A stretch of 63,445 nucleotides of DNA from Dinochytrium kinnereticum (taxonomy: Eukaryota; Chytridiomycota; Chytridiomycetes; Chytridiales; Chytridiaceae). The stretch spans positions 2,146-65,590 of the forward strand of contig JADGJT010000097.1 of the NCBI GenBank assembly GCA_027604005.1. Reading direction: 5' to 3'. The notes under the pieces were generated by a model. That model saw nothing but the letters and a program-made list of their open reading frames with translations, made no database searches and was not told where the DNA came from. A program made the position numbers and the translations under genes. Position 1 is the stretch's first letter. Each line of letters begins with the position of its first letter. Below are positions 44,455 through 55,637 of the stretch, piece by piece.

Positions 44455-45614
44455 TTAAAGTGCCCATATTCCTGTTTTTTTCATAACACGCGCAAAATCC
44501 TCTTCAGTGATCTCGCCGTCTCCGTCTTTATCAGCCTCTTCAAGCATCTCCCTCATCTCCTCCTCCGTGAATCCCTCATCCGCAGCTACAGCCTCTACCA
44601 TAGCTTTGATATGATTTAGCGTAGCTCTTCGAGGGGGATTTGTTGGCTTTGCAGACAGTGCTGAGATTCGGCTAAATAGGTCTTGAGGACTGCTTGATCG
44701 CGAGCTTGGGGCAGACAAAAGATGCTCGGGTATCTCAATCTCGCAAAGTGATCGGAACATGCGGTTCATCTCATCTCTGGCCATTTTAGCAACCTTAAAA
44801 GACAAATGTAAATGATGATGATAGTTTCTTCACTCGTGTATTTTCTTACCAGTCTTTTTGATACCATTGCGAGGAATTCTTCAAAGTCGATGGTTCCGCT
44901 GCCATCCTTATCCATCTCCTGTAGCATTAACCGAAGCTCATCCTTGGACGGTTCAAAGCCCATGGCCCTCATCGCCACCCGCCATTCTTTTCTCGTGATA
45001 CTCCCAGACCCATCCGTGTCGAAAAGATCGAAAGCCTCTTTAATCTCTGCCTCCTGCTGCGGCGTGATGTGAAATTGGCGTTGCTTCTTGCTTGACCCTC
45101 GAGCCTGGGGAGTTGGAGGTTTAGTAACTTTTCCATCTAAACTCTTTAACTCCCCAGTCTTCTGGGAGTCGGGTGCGCTGTGAGGTGCACTTGACGGAGC
45201 TGATTGCTGGTAGCTGTCCTGGGGTCTGGAATCCTTCAAGCCTGTGCTTCTGGGTCGAGTGAGAGATTCCCTTCGCTGCGTCGCAACATCGCCATAGCTG
45301 TAGTTATTGGAGGAAACATCCGGAAGAGGGGTTCGACTGCTTCTCCTGTTAAGGTCAGATGGAGTGCCAACTCGGGAGTGCGATGAGAAGTCGGCAATGT
45401 TATGGTTGCTGGAGAGCTTGTTCAGAGGTCTTGTGCTGCCATGGGGCACGGAGACGGGCCTCAACACAGCCTCGCTGCTGCCTGGACCACTTCTTCTCTC
45501 CCCTAATGCCCCAATGCTGCCTGTCTCTGCATGCTCCTTTCGCCTCTGAGCAAACGGGTTGCTGACCCAGTCGCCCTCATATTCCCCTCTACTTTCATGG
45601 ATTCTGTGGGTCAT
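44455..45614 (-). CDS. centrin-like EF-hand protein with disordered N-terminus and degenerate third EF-hand
   Basis: Calcium-binding protein related to centrin/CDC31, which works at basal bodies and spindle poles. Exons 45614-44850 and 44793-44455 join to 367 residues, twice the usual 160-170. Residues 1-185 are disordered (Ser/Arg/Pro-rich). Then [20 protein letters not shown] starts EF1 ([12 protein letters not shown]), EF2 follows ([12 protein letters not shown]), and EF4 is intact ([12 protein letters not shown]) ending MKKTGIW, the centrin C-terminus. Where EF3 should be, its first helix ([13 protein letters not shown]) is followed by a Ser-rich stretch instead of a calcium loop. It sits 177 bp downstream of the adenylyl cyclase gene on the same strand and is convergent with SEC7. 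Confidence 0.83.
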
Positions 45615-45791
45615 TTGGAAGTGACAAACCCAACGTGACAATCTTGATAATTAGATATAATATTCATTGCACATTTGAAACATTCGAAACAGTTGAGGAG
45701 AAAAAGTTCGTGCCAACAACAACAACGACAACAGGATGAATGATATTAGATAATGCTAATGTACATGCTTCATTTAAAATACACAGTGGAA

Positions 45792-48700
45792 TTACATATA
45801 TGTCTGAATCCAAGCAGACAGCGCGATGTATCCGATCTTGTTGAAGAGCTCGACACACTCCATTAGTAGCACTTGATTCTCAGATGCGGACCTTCCTCCC
45901 CGCAAAAGTCCGATTGCTGCTAACATCCAAGCTCGAAGCATCAAATAATTCTTTAGCACAGACGCATGCCTTCCCATGGCTCTCTTAACCTTAATGTAAG
46001 CTCGTCTCGCTCCGGCTTCTCCGTGTTCAAGATAGGCCATCATAACGGTCCCAATCTGAAAAGCCCACTCGCAAAGTGAAACTCTTTGGACCATGCTCAT
46101 CCTCTTGTTGCAATCTCTCAAGGCCGAAACCGAATTCATCAGTTTTATTCGATCTAGGCGCGATAACTCCGATTTTGGTGATTTCAATGGGATACCGGAG
46201 TTGAGTGGAGGAAATAATATGAAAAGAGGGTAGAAAGAAAGCAATACTATCCCGTCTATAGGTGTCGGAAATATAGTGTTTACATTCTTGAGTACTTCCA
46301 CAATTTCGATAAACATCTTTAAGCCGGAAGATGTGTCAGACGGCCGTAAAAGGATCGCAAGAAGTTCTGACAGTCTGTATGATGTTTGCGAAATTATCCC
46401 AGGCATGTAGATTCTGAAAGCCTGGCACGTTTTTAACCATATCTCGGCCTTTTCAAACTCAGCCCGCAGTAGCATCTCTCTCGAGATCAGAATAGTCCCT
46501 GCTACAACACCTACTATTATCTCTTGGCGAAAAACCTCAGAAAAAACGGCGATTAATTCCTCCGTTTCAGTTGTCCTTGGCACTCCGATCCAAAACAATA
46601 TATGCTCTCTCATGCAAAGGCCCATATAATGGTTTCCAATATCCCCGTCCGATTTCCGGTTTTCAATGTAACGAAGAACATGCTTGAGGGATTCCTGGGC
46701 CTTCCCGTCATGATAGTCACATATGCAACGAACCATTTCCAAGATTTCCAACTTTGATACCATAACTGGGTGCAGATTCGAAATCAATTCTTTCTCTCTT
46801 CGGCTATAAATACGTTGAAGAAATGGAAACCTGCTACGAAAAGCCAACGAAGACCGAACACATAAATTTGCAAATGCGGCAGGGCTATCCTTCGCATATC
46901 TTATGCAGACATTGAGACATTTGAGAAGACTAAGAAACTGATCTTCATCGGAACGGGTAAAATCCCAATAGGCAGACTCCCTCAACAGGTTATAACAAGT
47001 AGCCTTGATCCGATCCGTTTCAAAGCTGGCCGCACAAGCTTCATTTAGAAATAATCTTTGTGGCGGTAGCAAGGTTGGTCCATTAATCGAGAAATCATTC
47101 ATAGAGCCGACCCGTCGCCGCGTGGCTTTATGTTCACGGCGACCCCCGGCGGTCACTGTCCAAAGGCGGAAATGATAACCTAATTCTCGAACAAGCTTCG
47201 CTTTGAAATCTTTTTTCTCTTGAGGCCATGGCTCATCCCCAAGCAAAGACAGAGTTGACATTGCTGTGCTCCAGGCATTTTTGAGGTTCTTTTTCAAGAA
47301 GTGCGCATTGGTCAGAACACATAGCCATCGGGCTCTTTGTAGCTTATGATGATATGTGCAGTTTTCTTCTGACATGTCAGGTAGATTTTTGCTAGCAACT
47401 GAAAGTAGTAACTCTGTGGTCTGTAGGCAACTATCTAATATAAATCTCTCGCTATAAAGAGACCTTAAAGACTTCTTAACAATTTAAAAACATGGAATTG
47501 AAAATACCCTAGTTCCTGTAGATACTGAATAGACTTCTCATGTTCCGTACTCTTAGTAAAGTGAAAAACCAATAGGGGAAGGACAACGTCCCGATTTTCC
47601 TCTGCTAAAATAGTCTCAAATTTACGGCCAATGAGTCCATGTGTTGACTGCCGATAAGAATACGGCTGAGATTCATAGATACTAGTCATGATAGCGATGT
47701 TTCTAAAGGTATACATCCGTCGATCCAAGTCGAAGGATGAGTCCATACCCTCGCCTGTTCCAATCATGGTCGTATTATAATTTAAAAAGCGAAAACGGTC
47801 AGATATGTCAATCCATATCGCAAGTTCTTCCGCGCTTTCAGATAGATCAAATGCAAAAATGAGATCCTCTAGTGCGAATTGCTGTGAAACTTTTTTACGA
47901 AAGACTCTTTAACAAAATATCTAACCTGGCCAAACACTGCCGCTAGTCGAAGAAAATCCTTGAACGACCCGTCTAGTCTTACAAAAATTAGAATCATATT
48001 ATTAGGCTCTCAATACCGATCGAACTGAACAAGTATCATTGATGTCATATTTTTAAGGTCAATTGTGTCTACATCGAAGGCCAAAATACTGGTTCTCTCG
48101 CTGACAGATTTTGGGCTCAAATCATACCCGATCTTGGACAACATATCGTCCATTAATACGTCAATAAAGAAAGGATTTCCTGATGAAACTTCAAAAATTC
48201 GCTCTAGAATTTTTGGGCTTAATTGCGACCCTTGAGTCTCCTTCATTTTCCAAGACTCAAATTCGAGTTCGGTTAGCGTGGCAAAATACGGAATAGTAGT
48301 CTTAAGCTTACCATATATTGTATAAAATCTTCCCTTTGAAGCCCCTTTAAAGACAAATGAACAACTTTGGGAAGCCTTAATAGTTTTGGAAACGCATCCG
48401 TCTGATATTCCTCACGAGGCCTACTTAATAATAGCAGGAATGTCTACAAGTTACTTAATTAGATATCAAGACTAGGGTCAAAGTGAGGCTCTTTAACGTA
48501 CATTTCGGCAGGTTTTTGCAATTGAGATAAAAATATCCATCGACGTCGCGTCAATCCACTTAAACTTGAGTTAAAATGATATAATCAACTGATGAATATA
48601 CCTGAATGTCATCAATAATCAGAACCAGCTTGCCTTCAACGCCGGGTTTGGAGCTAAAGCGCTGAAAGCAATTAAGCAATATCGACTTTAGGATCGAGAC

Positions 48701-51559
48701 GCGAGCCTGCGCGTCCAGTCTCTTCACTCGATCAGAATCCGGAATCTGTAAAGAAGGTATAACTTGACTTTGCAAGCATTAAGTGATCTGTATAAAACTG
48801 AAATAGTACCGAAATAAACTCGCCAATTCTGCAGGAATACCAAGCCTAATGAATGTCTTGATATTGTGCTCTATCTCTTCTACGGAAACCGTTTCTCGTC
48901 TAGCTGACGATACCTTGGTAGTAATTGAACCATTCCGTTCGCTTTCCCCTCCCGCAGTCTCTTTTGAGTGCATAGAAAACTTTGATAGTGATGACAGGCT
49001 TCTAATCACCTGCCCTCTTCGATTTATTTTAGATTCGTTTCTTTGGTTGGCTTCTAAAATATATGCAATCACTGGCTTAATTCCAAAGAATGGCGTTCCC
49101 TGATCAACTTCCGATCCTGAAAAGGAGGAACTTAGAAATGGGTAGACTTACAATGACGGTGGAAAATACAAACCGCTTATGAAGCTGAAATGAAAAAGTA
49201 TAAAACCATTAGATGACCGGGATGGAAAAATTGCACGACATAAAATAATTATACTATACCATATAGGAAGGGACAGTTTTCTTGCCTCGCGTTTGATAAT
49301 GCTTGCCATCTTTGTTTTCCCGATTCCACTCGGACCTTCAAGAACACCAACGAATTGCTCGCTGTATTCATGCCAAAACTTAAGACCATTTAAAATTGCT
49401 TCCATTTCTAACTGATATCCAAACAAAGGATTCTCTTCATCAATTGCTTCATTGACCTTCGTTGCGGATTTTTCAGATTGAACGCTTGGGCTAATAAGCC
49501 AAATTCTTTCGGCATACTGCCTGCCTTTAATCTATAAAAAAGTTTAACAATTAATGTATCAGATAAAGGAAGGGGCTTACGTCCTTCATACCCAGGAGAC
49601 TGTGGGATCCCAGATGCGGTGATTTCAGATGTGTTTCCTCGTCGCATGCGATGGAATTCAGGCCAAATCTAAAAAAAATAATTATTGAGATATATGGAAC
49701 AAATATGCATTCTTACTGAAGTAGCCGTGCGGACAGATTGACAGAATCGCCTTATTCGAAGGGGGAAAATATGATTATGAGATAACGAGCCTAATAAGGA
49801 TGATGATACCTAAGAATGAAGCTTCAGAGCGTACGTCATTGCCGATGAAGGAGACGAGGACCTCTCCAGTAGCAACAGAGATAGAAATAGGCCCGTATTC
49901 AAAAAGGGATATGGCAGCTAAAACATCAATAGCTGCTCGAATCGCGAATGCTGAGTTATTTTCCCTATTCCACGGCTGAAGCATAGATTATATTAATTTG
50001 ATTCGATTGGTGTGCCTGCCAAGACGGTATATAATTTACCGGAAGTCCGAAGAAAGCCAGAATCGTTTGACCCTTATCATCAACGGAAAATTGCTGAAAC
50101 ACACCGCAATATTTATCGAGCGCTTCAAGTACAACATCCATACAAGCTGTAGCCCATACGGCATTAAATCCCCATAGGAGCTTAATGAACATAGTCGAAA
50201 GAGTGCGAAATTCTGATTCGATGACAGTTGCCGACGCTCGACTTATACTAGCTTTTCTGCTATTGGTCATCGCCATGGAATGAAAACTCGACTTTTTTCT
50301 GGCTAAAGGGCTAGGTTGAGGTGTTTCTTCAATGATTTTTTGCATTGCAGCATCGAAAATATCAGGGCGGATTTTGAAGATAAAAGATTGGTTGATAAAT
50401 CTCATAATAAACATCTCGCTCTCTAAATTCGGACCTAGAGCAAGAGACGATAGCGTGAGAGATGTAGTTCTTAGAGAAGTAAAACTAGCGTCAGTTCCCG
50501 TCGACCTCTCACTATGAACGCTCAACGTTGTGGACATTTTTCGACTTGCAAAGACCTTTTGCAAAACGGTGCCGTTTAAAACGCAAAAGCCAGAGTACTT
50601 CCTAACTGAAGATACCGGAAGGTACTTCTTAATTGGGAATTCGCAGAGCTCCCAGACCGCGTTTGACACCCCAAGTTCACCTAATGATTTGTTTGTTTGT
50701 TTTTTTTTTTTGAAGGATTTTTCAGGCCTATTACAAAAAGAATATAAAAGAGGATATTACCTTGCTTGGAGTGTTCTAGTATGACACCGAGCTCGTTAAG
50801 GTGATCCCCATAAATAAAGTAGTCCAGTCTGGAGCTTGGCCTTCCTAGGACAACCCTTGATGTCTCTCCGACAGACACTGCCGTGTGAAGTCTCAAGGAA
50901 TATAAAGTGGTTTGGCCGGAGCCATCCTTTTTCGACCTGCTTGTTCCTTTGACCAACGGATCATTGTCGCGGCCTCGACTAGCGTGAGATTGTGACCGAG
51001 GAAGAACGTTCTCACTCATTTCTCCCATATTTATGTAGGCTGACGTGTCAACCTCAATGTAGGGATATTGCGAGAGAATGTGGGCGCAACAGAGTGTTGC
51101 TCTTTCTGTCACCCTTGATATGTTCTCATCACACTGTGATTTAGAGAACGTCACCAAGACCGCATCACCCAAGAATTTTACTATATCACCCTCATACGTG
51201 CTGAGAACGTCAATGATTTTGTTCATGTACGCCCCCACAGTTTGAGTGATAAGCTCTGAAGATATTTTCCCCTCTTTGGCCTGATAAGAGTCAAAAAAAA
51301 GTATACATGAAGCCGTTCTTACCAAATTGGACGTTAAAGCGGAGAAGCCCGAAATATCTATCATAGCCTATATGATCAACCTAAGTTCCCTTTGTTTGGC
51401 ATTTGAAGCGAGGCATACCACTGCAAGAACATCCTTTTCAATGTAGGGCTCGCCAATTTGGAGGCAGTCAATGAGCTGCTGCCTCTTTCTTTCATTAACA
51501 AAGGTTTCCTTAACAAATCGAGCTGTGAAGGCAGTCAGGCTCCGAGAATCTGCCTCCAT
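45792..51559 (-). CDS. soluble (class III) adenylyl cyclase, ADCY10-like, with STAND-type ATPase region
   Basis: Produces cAMP; in animals and flagellate protists it is the bicarbonate/calcium-responsive cyclase of cilia. Many short exons from ATG 51559 down to 45792. C1 has VLAVAMIDISGFSALTSNL and GDIVKFLGDAVLVTF, supplying both metal-binding Asp and the Lys; C2 has QFSVDDKGQTILAFFGLP, SISVATGEVLVSFIGNDVR and GDSVNLSARLL with the transition-state Asn and Arg. After C2 comes FGYQLEMEAILNGLKFW and the Walker A GPSGIGKTKMA (about 49330), then a Walker-B-like KLVLIIDDIQ (about 48630). A long helical TPR-like C-terminus (single exon 47375-45792) follows. Total about 1,600-1,700 residues, the size of human sAC. 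Internal exon borders were only partly set. Confidence 0.9.
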
Positions 51560-51743: not shown

Positions 51744-52295
51744 TTATTCCAAAAGGCGGAGCGTTGTTTCGAGGCCAAGAACAGACAGATACCACCAAAC
51801 TGGCGCGACCGTGCTTCCCCCGCTAGTCAATGCCCCCTCCATCATGCGAAGCCGCAAGATAAGGGCCGTCACCGTCCTCACGGCCCATTTTCTGAATCTT
51901 CTAACATACAAAAACATGACAAGATGACGCATGGCCCGCCCCACATTATCCTTCACAGTTTTCGTGATCTGAGTGCGAAGCACATCCCAGGGGATAAAAA
52001 GAATGTACCAAAAGGTGGAAGATATTGCCGACGGGGTTTTGGTTTTTGGAGTTGATACGGAGGGCAAAGTTGGGGTGTGGGCTGCCTGGTGGGCTGCGGC
52101 ATCGACAGTGAGTCTGCGGATGACAGCTTCAAGCTGTTCTATCCGGTCTTCCATGGCCAGACTCTTCTTCTTTAGAATGCCCAGCTCACTCTCCTTCACG
52201 TGAATCCGAGCACCATTATCCTCCTCGGCGGCGGACGGAGCAATCGCCACGGTGGTGCCCGCCGCTGAGTCTTTGCAGTCCATCTCGCCGGCCAT
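51744..52295 (-). CDS. unknown 183-residue protein with short coiled coil and hydrophobic segment
   Basis: Uninterrupted frame with ATG at 52295. I do not recognise the family. The N-terminus is disordered and acidic. A heptad-like helix (ESELGILKKKSLAMEDRIEQ and on) probably forms a coiled coil. After a Thr/Pro linker comes a hydrophobic patch SSTFWYILFIPWDVL and a basic, amphipathic C-terminal half (VGRAMRHLVMFLYVRRFRKW), suggesting peripheral membrane association. It lies 184 bp upstream of the cyclase start on the same strand. It is divergent from the W2-domain gene with 228 bp between starts. Coding potential is supported only by frame length, an ATG, and biased composition, so confidence is moderate. 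Confidence 0.5.
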   Translation of the reverse strand: MAGEMDCKDSAAGTTVAIAPSAAEEDNGARIHVKESELGILKKKSLAMEDRIEQLEAVIRRLTVDAAAHQAAHTPTLPSVSTPKTKTPSAISSTFWYILFIPWDVLRTQITKTVKDNVGRAMRHLVMFLYVRRFRKWAVRTVTALILRLRMMEGALTSGGSTVAPVWWYLSVLGLETTLRLLE

Positions 52296-52523
52296 TGCAA
52301 GCCGAGACAATCCAGATAGTTCCCTGATGCCGCGAGAAAATCCAGCTAAATATTCATCTGAACAAAGGTCGCAGCGGGAGCGATGTACATGGAGCTCCTG
52401 ATCCTCAATCTGTGTCGATGCTCAAGTGATTCACACAAGAGGGAAATCTCTGAGGAGAAATCTATACAGATTCACAATTGCCATTCAAGAAAAAAAAAGT
52501 TGACCTACTGATACTCTACGGAG

Positions 52524-55500
52524 ATGGAGGGGAAGGGTGTGGCCACGACGTCGTCGGCGAGTCTCTCACGACACTTCGGGACGCCCTTCGTCGTGAGCGC
52601 TGCGATAGCAACGTGTCTAGGCGTTGTTGCCTACGTATCCACCTCAAGGCCACCTGCAAAGGACGACACAAAGATTCGAAAGAGGAGAAAGCCCCAGAGG
52701 TCACGGCCGAGCTCGGCCTCCCAGACCCTCGATACAGCGTCAGAGGCCCAGACTTCTGTAAGCACGCCCGCTAAGAAGGTGTTTGTGGATCAGGGAAGCC
52801 AGACCTGCGCCGGTTCTGAGATTCAGGAAGCCTCAATCCCACACTTACCATGCCACCAGTGCAACTCAACACATTCGACCTCACAATCCACCTTGTACAC
52901 GCCAAACACACCCATACCCCCCACGTCACGAACGACTGGTACAGTTAAATCTGCTCAAGCACCTAATTCAACACCCGTTGCCGTGTATACTGGTCTTCCT
53001 CCTCTGTATGGTGGTTCCAGTTCCTTGTCTTCACCAACTCGTTCCGACTCTGCCAGTCAATCTCCCAACAACGTACAAACATCCATGCCGCAACTCAACC
53101 TCCTCTCGCCTATGCTCCAACCCACAGATACATTTTCTGATACCAGCTCTATTCCCTCAGAGAGTTCAGTTTTGTCCCTCACGGGCCTTCATAGTGACGG
53201 ACGAGACGTTTCGACGCAAGCAATTCTTGGGGACGATCCTCAGGTGCTCCTTGCGGAGATTGCCAGGTTGAAGCAGCATTTTCATGTTTCCCGGTTTCAG
53301 AACAAGAAGCTTGAAGCCCAGGTTTGCTTGATTCCTTTTCCTTTTTTTGTTTCTATGTAGTAACCAGTGGGGGGAAGCTGGCATTTATTTTGTCGTTCCT
53401 TTTGGAGACTATTTTTTATAAAAAGTCGGCTGATTCACTTTGTATTAAAGGTTCGCTTGCTTAACCGCAAGCGAGATGCCTTAACAGAGTCTGTACGTGG
53501 GCTAAAAAACGACGTTCGCTCTGAGCGTGATGCTAGGTTCGTGATGGAGCGCTGCCTGAATGACCGCATGAAGAAGATGGAGTTTGATCTCGACTTTAAG
53601 GAAAACGAGATCATCCAGCTTCGAGATCGCGAAAGGCAACTTGAGGAAGATCTGGAAAATAAGTTCTTCGATGACGGACCTACACAGTCTCACCGCAAGG
53701 AGATTTCCACCAGCTCAAGGTTTATTTCGTTTTCAGCCGAGCCGAAGTTATCAAGAGCTTTGAGCGACGTGTCTTTCCGGAGACCCTGCGAGGATGTTAC
53801 CTCTGAGAGTGATGACGAGGAAGAGGAGGACGCCAGCGAAAGTGATAAGGAGTCAAAGACGCCTGGACGGGAGCCTGAGGAAGGGTACGGATCAGAAGAA
53901 TCCGCCTCCTCTGACAATAAGGAGGAAAGAACCCTCTGTGCTTCTCCTTTTCATTCTAGAAGATGCTCGGAAGACGTTTCTGGGTGCAACGACTCTGTGC
54001 CCGGCACCCCGATGGATACGGGGTTTTTCGCCATCGCGAAGGACAAGATTTTTCAAGAGCTCGTTTCGGATGCGTCCCTATCTACCATACTGGTTGATTT
54101 GGATGAGATTGTCGCGAGCCACTCGGCTTCGAATAAGGACTGTTTGAACGTTGTTGTGGAGTCTTTGATTAGGTTTACGGAGATTAGGGCCTTTTGCTCT
54201 GGAAATAAGAACGTGAAGGTGGTTGATGCTGTTGAGAAGGTATTTATCATTCATATATATCACCCATTACGTTATTTCGAGAAAGAGCTGCTTTGATTAA
54301 AACAGGCTTGCGTTTCTTGATAAGGTGTTGTCGAAGTACTGGAAGCTCCTCTCGGCTTCTGTCGACTCTGAGGATGACGAGTCATACCTTTTGTCTGCCC
54401 TTGAGTCCGCCTGTACTTTGCCTCGAACCAGGATTCCACTTCATCGGTTCGTCATCATGAATCTCTATCGACAAGATTTGTTCCAGCCAAACTCTCTGAT
54501 TTCGTGGTGGTCAACGGTGACTCCTGGCGCTGTTGCGGAGATTCGCGAGCAGGTAGGGTCTTTCGTTATTTCTTGCTTTGTTTTAGGGATGGAGACAAGT
54601 CATTTCAATTCAAATCTTTTGCCATTTCTGAAATGGATGAAGTTGTTCTTGCGTTTTCTAATATTTGCAATTTTACTTAGTCTGCGTCTTTTGTTTCATG
54701 GCTGAAGAACAAGTTGGAGACGGAGAGCGAGGAGGAGGAAGAGAATCTAGAACACCCTCCTGAAGCTGCCCTTGAGGAGGAGGACGACGAAGACGAGGAA
54801 GATGAGGAGGAAGAGGATGATGACGACGACGAGGAAAACCTTGTTGAGGATGAAGGGACTAGTGAGGATGCTGGGAGCGTTGGTAGCGTGGTTATTGAGT
54901 TTGAGTATCCCCCTGGTGAGGAAGGAGCCAACAACGACACGGGCGATTCCGACGGTTCTGACGCCTCTGAGGATGACTCGGAAGATGAAGGCTCGGACGA
55001 AGAGGACGATTCCGATGACGATAGGAATGAGACGACAGCAGTTCCTGCCCCTATTGAGAGTTCCCACGACCTTTTCCCTACCGTTACGTCCATGGACGAC
55101 ATTGAGGACGGCGCCTTCGCCTCGGTCGAAAGCATTCATATGGATCCTCCCTCCGTCTGCGTGACCGAACTTCCCCCCGCCACCGCCGCCCTTGACACAC
55201 GCAATGACCCTTTATCTTCCAAGCTGTCCGTTATGGAAGCCAATCCCCGCATGATCCGGTTAGAAGTCGAGTCGACCTCCAAACTCCCACCCTTGCCCCC
55301 CGACGCGCCTCGTGAGCGTGGCCGAAACCGCCGTTCCCCCGATGATGACACGGCCTTGCGTCATGACTTTGGACGCTCCCCCGTCATGCCCAGCGATGGA
55401 GTGTATCCTGCCCTTGATCTTCCTGGTTCTGTTCCTGGTGATTCTGGGAAGGAAAGGAGGGTGGCGAAGAAGCAGGGGTTGAGGCCGTCGGCTTCTTGGT

Positions 55501-55637
55501 GTTCTAGTGGAGCTGGTTTGGGGGTTGAATCTAGGTCGAGGAGCGCTTCGAGCGTTGGAAACGGAAAGAGGGTTACCTTTTCGAGCGTTGTTGGGGTTGT
55601 TGGGGTTGTGGGGGTGCCTGGTGACGCGGAGGGGTAG
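52524..55637 (+). CDS. membrane-anchored W2 (eIF2B-epsilon/eIF5-like) domain protein with RVxF PP1-docking motif
   Basis: Exons 52524-53321, 53451-54239, 54325-54552 and 54681-55637 join in frame to 923 residues. A single N-terminal helix (residues about 20-40, TPFVVSAAIATCLGVVAYVS) followed by a basic cluster KIRKRRKPQRSR predicts an anchor with the rest cytosolic. A disordered Ser/Pro segment and a coiled coil (about 245-345) follow. Residues about 460-620 match the W2 HEAT fold: KIFQELVSDASLSTILVDLD, VEKVLSKYWKLL, YLLSALESAC, HRFVIMNLYRQDLF, SLISWWSTV and SFVSWLK, then a long Glu/Asp tail like the AA-box. A canonical PP1-docking motif KRVTF is at residues 901-905 (55566-55580). No catalytic eIF2B nucleotidyltransferase domain is present. 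Function is inferred, see findings. Confidence 0.75.

Follow-up and report, generated by a model that had tools for sequence, protein, structure and literature searches.

The gene HDU67_010354 of Dinochytrium kinnereticum (Chytridiales) lies in a window of 63,445 nt, which is the whole stretch of DNA that was analysed and from whose first letter all coordinates count. Judged from its sequence and a structural model, its product is a protein that unites an eIF2B-epsilon-type W2 domain with a conserved C-terminal RVxF motif, the docking motif for protein phosphatase 1 (PP1). It further has a coiled coil and, at its N-terminus, a hydrophobic stretch. We consider it rather probable that HDU67_010354 acts as a PP1 targeting subunit that brings PP1 to eIF2-alpha, PPP1R15-like in its working and built from unrelated parts. 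As such, it is probably a new, unrelated variant of PP1 targeting subunit with eIF2 as its target. An earlier note on this DNA had interpreted the gene as a possible PPP1R15-like scaffold tethered to a membrane. The W2 domain and the RVxF motif of that reading stand, its membrane helix does not appear in the structural model, and the role on eIF2 and PP1 is one that we infer.

A conserved combination of W2 and RVxF

Protein searches yielded eight family members from six species, spanning two orders. Group A comprises five proteins, from D. kinnereticum (P0001, that is HDU67_010354), Phlyctochytrium planicorne (P0002), Chytridiales sp. JEL 0842 (P0003), Batrachochytrium dendrobatidis (P0004) and Polyrhizophydium stewartii (P0008); group B comprises three, from D. 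kinnereticum (P0005), P. bullatum (P0006) and P. planicorne (P0007). A coiled-coil region, the W2 domain and the RVxF motif co-occur in all eight. For P0002 and P0008, the gene model begins at the coiled coil or close to it, and an N-terminal part seems to be missing. A ninth match, P0009, found by profile search, is a JGI eIF2B-epsilon piece without RVxF; it is listed among other eIF2B-type domains and was excluded from the counts. P0004 is deposited as eIF2B subunit epsilon; as Pfam finds just W2 above cut-off and the protein belongs to the W2-RVxF family, this name is probably a domain-based misannotation. The D. kinnereticum paralogue, HDU67_005117, lies outside the window (L004/L006, G000 contig C28, about 89,700-91,800, minus strand) and has hydrophobic segments, a coiled-coil region, W2, an acidic tail and a C-terminal RVRF.

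The W2 domain is recognized by Pfam (PF02020, aa 548-623, 37.9 bits, E 1.9e-9; curated cut-off 30 bits), and in the AlphaFold model the HEAT-type fold extends across the full domain, aa 457-628, with a predicted local distance difference test score (pLDDT) of mostly about 90. Its closest W2, both by sequence and by fold, is that of eIF2B-epsilon, an eIF2 binder. Among the relatives, hmmscan scores lie above the cut-off in P0002 (52.1), P0004 (56.6) and P0008 (40.1) and below it in P0003 (26.8) and P0007 (28.4). P0005 and P0006 gave no W2 match with hmmscan; the P0005 locus nevertheless reached 33.8 bits in a profile search of the genome, where the W2 exon of the window alone scored 27.9 bits.

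A strict RVxF pattern, [KR][KR]?[VI][not P,D,E][FW], which was defined with the motifs already known, matches exactly once in each of the eight proteins, always inside the last 34 residues. The motif is KRVTF in P0001, where it is the sole match, and in P0008, KKVTF in P0002, P0003 and P0004, RVRF in P0005 and P0007, and RVSF in P0006. The P0003 motif was misaligned in a four-sequence alignment and in register in an eight-sequence one. When the HDU67_010354 tail was shuffled, the probability of a match within the last 45 residues was 0.003 with the strict pattern and 0.010 with a loose one, [KR]x(0,1)[VI][not P][FW]. Across the eight proteins it ranged over 0.0008-0.021 (strict) and 0.003-0.050 (loose), values that cannot be freely multiplied because the proteins are related. 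Since the two groups have diverged and the tails C-terminal to W2, which span 57 to 351 residues, can hardly be aligned across the eight, the matches are unlikely to be due to chance. Nearly all residues of the tail have a pLDDT <50 in P0001 from aa 701 and in P0007 from aa 541. Retention of an RVxF through evolution in a disordered segment, here in 8/8 members, is what is expected of a PP1 regulatory subunit. Additional matches to the loose pattern (RFISF 356 in P0001, RGISF 199 in P0002, KLVEF 579 in P0004) were dropped as unconserved, and a search of the eight proteins for the PP1 motifs SILK and MyPhoNE found none.

Between W2 and RVxF lies a tail rich in acidic and serine residues, which from aa 618 holds as many as 30 aspartate or glutamate residues per 40. 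In six of the eight members, more than half of the stretch C-terminal to AA-box 2 is acidic. N-terminal to W2, the parts follow in the order hydrophobic stretch, basic flank, long low-complexity stretch, coiled coil and acidic serine-rich linker. The coiled coil is modelled as a single long helix (aa 239-339, pLDDT mostly 84-91), and between it and W2 the heptapeptide GYGSEES is invariant in 5/5 group-A proteins. All three group-B proteins have a DSGF between coiled coil and W2 (aa 271 in P0005, 378 in P0006, 211 in P0007), which we take to resemble a beta-TrCP degron. CReP degradation is described as running through beta-TrCP (PMC10743859).

The hydrophobic N-terminal stretch, with a Kyte-Doolittle maximum of 1.95 (aa 22-40) and a basic flank C-terminal to it, is a putative membrane anchor. 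N-terminal peaks also occur in P0003 (2.14) and P0004 (2.09), and the three group-B members show two peaks each (1.51-1.88) N-terminal to the coiled coil. The case for an anchor in HDU67_010354 rests on hydropathy together with P0003 and P0004 and is the weakest of the observed parts. Since the outer mitochondrial membrane could also be the site of a segment of such moderate hydrophobicity that is followed by a basic flank, the endoplasmic reticulum (ER) is only one option for its location.

Most of what the earlier note had described in the sequence was thus recovered: a real gene at 52524-55637, the coiled coil, the W2-like HEAT block, which matched eIF2B-epsilon on structural comparison, the long acidic tail behind it, and KRVTF at 901-905, which proved to be conserved. 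Of the N-terminal helix with basic flank, the hydrophobicity and the flank hold, and the helix is absent from the AlphaFold model; in relatives, the part order recurs from the coiled coil onward, the N-terminal peak being absent from the P0002 and P0008 models. As that note had remarked, no such architecture appears to be described: the searches made returned no earlier description of the W2-RVxF family.

A candidate route for PP1 to eIF2-alpha

In the mechanism that we infer, every interaction included, from these parts and their conservation, the N-terminus would hold HDU67_010354 on a membrane, facing the cytosol, and the coiled coil would render it oligomeric. The lysine boxes in the tail of eIF2-beta would be the binding site for the W2 domain and the acidic tail. 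RVxF would hold the PP1 catalytic subunit on a long flexible tail. Because eIF2 and PP1 would be held by the same protein, PP1 would be placed at eIF2-alpha Ser51, remove its phosphate and let initiation restart. A mammalian precedent for PP1 recruitment via the eIF2-beta tail is given by NCK1 (PMC12224906).

The D. kinnereticum eIF2-beta, assigned through a PF01873 match that shares its contig and strand, has three lysine runs (K-boxes), the type of site to which eIF5, eIF2B-epsilon and 5MP are described as binding with their C-terminal domains (PMC12224906). Its eIF2-alpha retains SELSRRRIRS, and a GCN2-type domain is present in the genome. A KVTF ending an eIF2-alpha open frame was dropped as an apparent read-through into an intron. 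The eIF2-gamma starts MDVDPSKLHPLSPEVISKQATINIG, with no extension ahead of the core, barring an unseen upstream exon. In Saccharomyces cerevisiae, the N-terminal extension of eIF2-gamma carries KKVAF and recruits Glc7; outside Saccharomyces and its close relatives the motif is described as absent, and neither it nor a GADD34/CReP homologue is described for S. pombe and Aspergillus (PMC10743859). Like the yeast system, the proposed chytrid one would bring PP1 to eIF2 in a fungus by way of an RVxF (PMC10743859, PMC8262944); the two differ in that KKVAF sits on eIF2 itself, whereas the chytrid RVxF sits on a separate protein.

The part order proposed for HDU67_010354, whose membrane association is putative, parallels that described for PPP1R15A/GADD34 and PPP1R15B/CReP, namely N-terminal membrane association, an eIF2-contacting middle and a C-terminal RVxF, and it mirrors the long disordered link between the last two in PPP1R15A (PMC10743859, PMC10998612). 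However, PPP1R15 contacts eIF2-gamma by short helices, whereas the contact in HDU67_010354 would be a folded W2 on eIF2-beta. PPP1R15 also has a conserved C-terminal core of ~70 residues, for which the W2-RVxF family has no room. Given that none of the eight proteins matches the core domain PP1c_bdg (PF10488) at E 1 and that only 2-29 residues follow RVxF, the family, as judged from sequence, is not a member of PPP1R15.

Nor do the eight proteins, P0004 included, show a Pfam match to the nucleotidyltransferase or hexapeptide domains of eIF2B-epsilon, from which HDU67_010354 also differs by its coiled coil, RVxF and hydrophobic N-terminus. The residue aligned to yeast eIF2B-epsilon Glu569 (numbered from the chain end), presumably the catalytic glutamate, is Asp482 in HDU67_010354 and Asn in P0008. 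A C-terminal W2 is shared with 5MP/BZW, eIF5 and DAP5, and an acidic end with eIF5 and 5MP; we know of no membrane segment or RVxF in eIF5 and DAP5. The genome has a separate eIF2B-epsilon gene (L003/L008, LbH_EIF2B 55.8 bits) and a 5MP-like gene (HEAT_5MP1_2 63.8 bits), which, unlike HDU67_010354, stops at W2. The three other W2 genes read to their end (5MP-like, CCCH-finger protein, eIF2B-epsilon) all terminate at or just after W2 and have no RVxF; eIF5 was not found in the W2 profile search of the genome, so its end stands outside this comparison. The CCCH-finger locus (L002, G000 contig C48, 42055-45273, minus strand) shows two zinc fingers, scoring 42.3 and 39.5 bits, and behind them on the same strand a W2 (58.6 bits); together these are probably one gene for an RNA-binding W2 protein.

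How PP1 is delivered to eIF2-alpha in fungi without PPP1R15 or the Saccharomyces-type eIF2-gamma motif is an open question according to a 2023 review, which names S. pombe, Aspergillus and plants. For chytrids, the W2-RVxF family provides a concrete candidate whose motif and domain can be mutated separately, and it suggests an unrecognised fungal way to turn protein synthesis back on. If this is true, the holophosphatase logic of membrane anchor, eIF2 binder and C-terminal RVxF arose twice from unrelated parts. According to the literature, the ribosomes of chytrid zoospores are dormant and translation in these cells is inactive (PMC8887899); the family would offer a handle on the restart of protein synthesis in them. 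Tentatively, two eIF2 phosphatase scaffolds with membrane anchors could have arisen within chytrids, separately from PPP1R15 of animals: fusion of a W2 like that of eIF2B-epsilon with a PP1 hook at the C-terminus would have been followed by gene duplication, giving a pair that parallels GADD34/CReP. The setting may be the zoospore with its clustered dormant ribosomes (ER-bound in some orders), where translation restarts at germination.

Points against the proposal and alternative explanations

Several observations weigh against an action of HDU67_010354 on eIF2 at a membrane. The AlphaFold model has no helix at the N-terminal hydrophobic stretch (pLDDT about 33-36), the same hydropathy scan peaks at 1.47-1.84 inside the W2 of P0004, P0007 and P0008 and at 1.54 at the C-terminus of HDU67_010354, and it gives no N-terminal peak in the probably truncated P0002 and P0008 models. 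P0004 and P0008 have a weakly acidic tail, with 32% and 19% aspartate or glutamate, respectively, in its first 60 residues. In five of the eight members RVxF lies 2-3 residues from the C-terminus, so no further PP1 contacts follow it there. Moreover, other PP1-recruiting routes exist, since Neurospora is described as using an eIF2-gamma extension without a consensus RVxF (PMC8262944). Finally, AA-box 1 appears less acidic in the alignment than in eIF5 and eIF2B-epsilon, its tryptophan is lost in P0008, and that of the degenerate AA-box 2 is lost in group B; because of these changes, eIF2-beta binding by these W2 domains may be weaker or redirected.

The last point also favours an unlikely alternative, in which the protein is a PP1 targeting subunit whose W2 binds another partner, or whose PP1 is aimed at another phosphosite, such as CK2 sites on eIF5, eIF2B-epsilon or eIF2-beta, or at eIF3/eIF4G. 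W2 is indeed versatile: the AA-boxes of both eIF4G and DAP5 bind Mnk, and of these two only DAP5 binds eIF2-beta (PMC4402527). CK2 is also reported to phosphorylate eIF5, eIF2B-epsilon and 5MP within their eIF2-beta-binding regions (PMC12224906). However, the nearest W2 is that of the eIF2 binder eIF2B-epsilon, and the acidity behind AA-box 2 in most members suits lysine boxes.

It is less probable still that HDU67_010354 is an anchor or decoy whose W2 stores eIF2 at the membrane, much as 5MP is a competitor for eIF2. In that case PP1, once docked, would act on the serine-rich acidic tail or the linker of HDU67_010354 itself, adjusting how strongly W2 binds, and not on eIF2-alpha. In vitro, W2 proteins are reported to bind eIF2-beta with higher affinity when phosphorylated by CK2 (PMC12224906), and the composition of the tail and the invariant GYGSEES would fit, but this reading does not by itself explain an RVxF near the C-terminal end of every member. 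It is very unlikely that [KR]V[TRS]F at the C-terminus represents another conserved peptide or a chance pattern and not a PP1 site: RVxF is short and degenerate, and the loose pattern gives one more unconserved match in 3/8 proteins, yet the motif keeps its terminal place in all members despite their hardly alignable tails, and the per-protein shuffle probabilities are low. A merger of two genes by automated annotation, which the truncated look of P0002 and P0008 might suggest, is hardly credible given the recurrence of coiled-coil region, W2 and RVxF in 8/8 proteins and the agreement of our splice model with the deposited one.

Gene model and neighbouring frames

Our spliced translation equals the public hypothetical protein HDU67_010354, which is an automated prediction and not cDNA. 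The three introns (129, 85 and 128 nt) have GT..AG ends and are all of phase 0. An alternative exon 3 acceptor at 54306 was rejected, as it breaks the frame, whereas the phase-0 acceptor before 54325 yields the deposited protein.

Table 1. Coordinates of HDU67_010354 and its parts in the window
Feature	Position	Strand	Basis
Whole coding gene	52524..55637	+	4 exons, 923 aa; 100% identity, equal length to deposited protein
Exon 1, aa 1-266	52524..53321	+	GT donor
Exon 2, aa 267-529	53451..54239	+	Splice model
Exon 3, aa 530-605	54325..54552	+	Splice model
Exon 4, aa 606-923 and stop	54681..55637	+	Splice model
Hydrophobic stretch and putative membrane anchor, aa 17-40	52572..52643	+	Kyte-Doolittle 1.95 at aa 22-40; no helix in AlphaFold model
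Basic flank aa 50-61 (KIRKRRKPQRSR)	52671..52706	+	Sequence
Coiled coil aa 239-339, spanning intron 1	53238..53669	+	AlphaFold model; conserved in group A
GYGSEES heptapeptide aa 411-417	53883..53903	+	Found in 5/5 group-A proteins
W2 HEAT domain aa 457-628, spanning introns 2 and 3	54021..54749	+	Pfam match, fold model, sequence/fold comparison
Acidic tail aa 618-720	54717..55025	+	Sequence composition
RVxF PP1-docking motif KRVTF aa 901-905, then SSVVGVV (possible PhiPhi element)	55566..55580	+	Pattern and conservation

On the minus strand, 44766-51367 holds an EF-hand protein, centrin-like by eye, beside frames that resemble soluble adenylate cyclase by eye; a Pfam search of two of these cyclase-like pieces gave no match. 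The divergently oriented neighbour frame at 51744-52421, also on the minus strand and without a Pfam match, shows coiled and hydrophobic stretches by eye.
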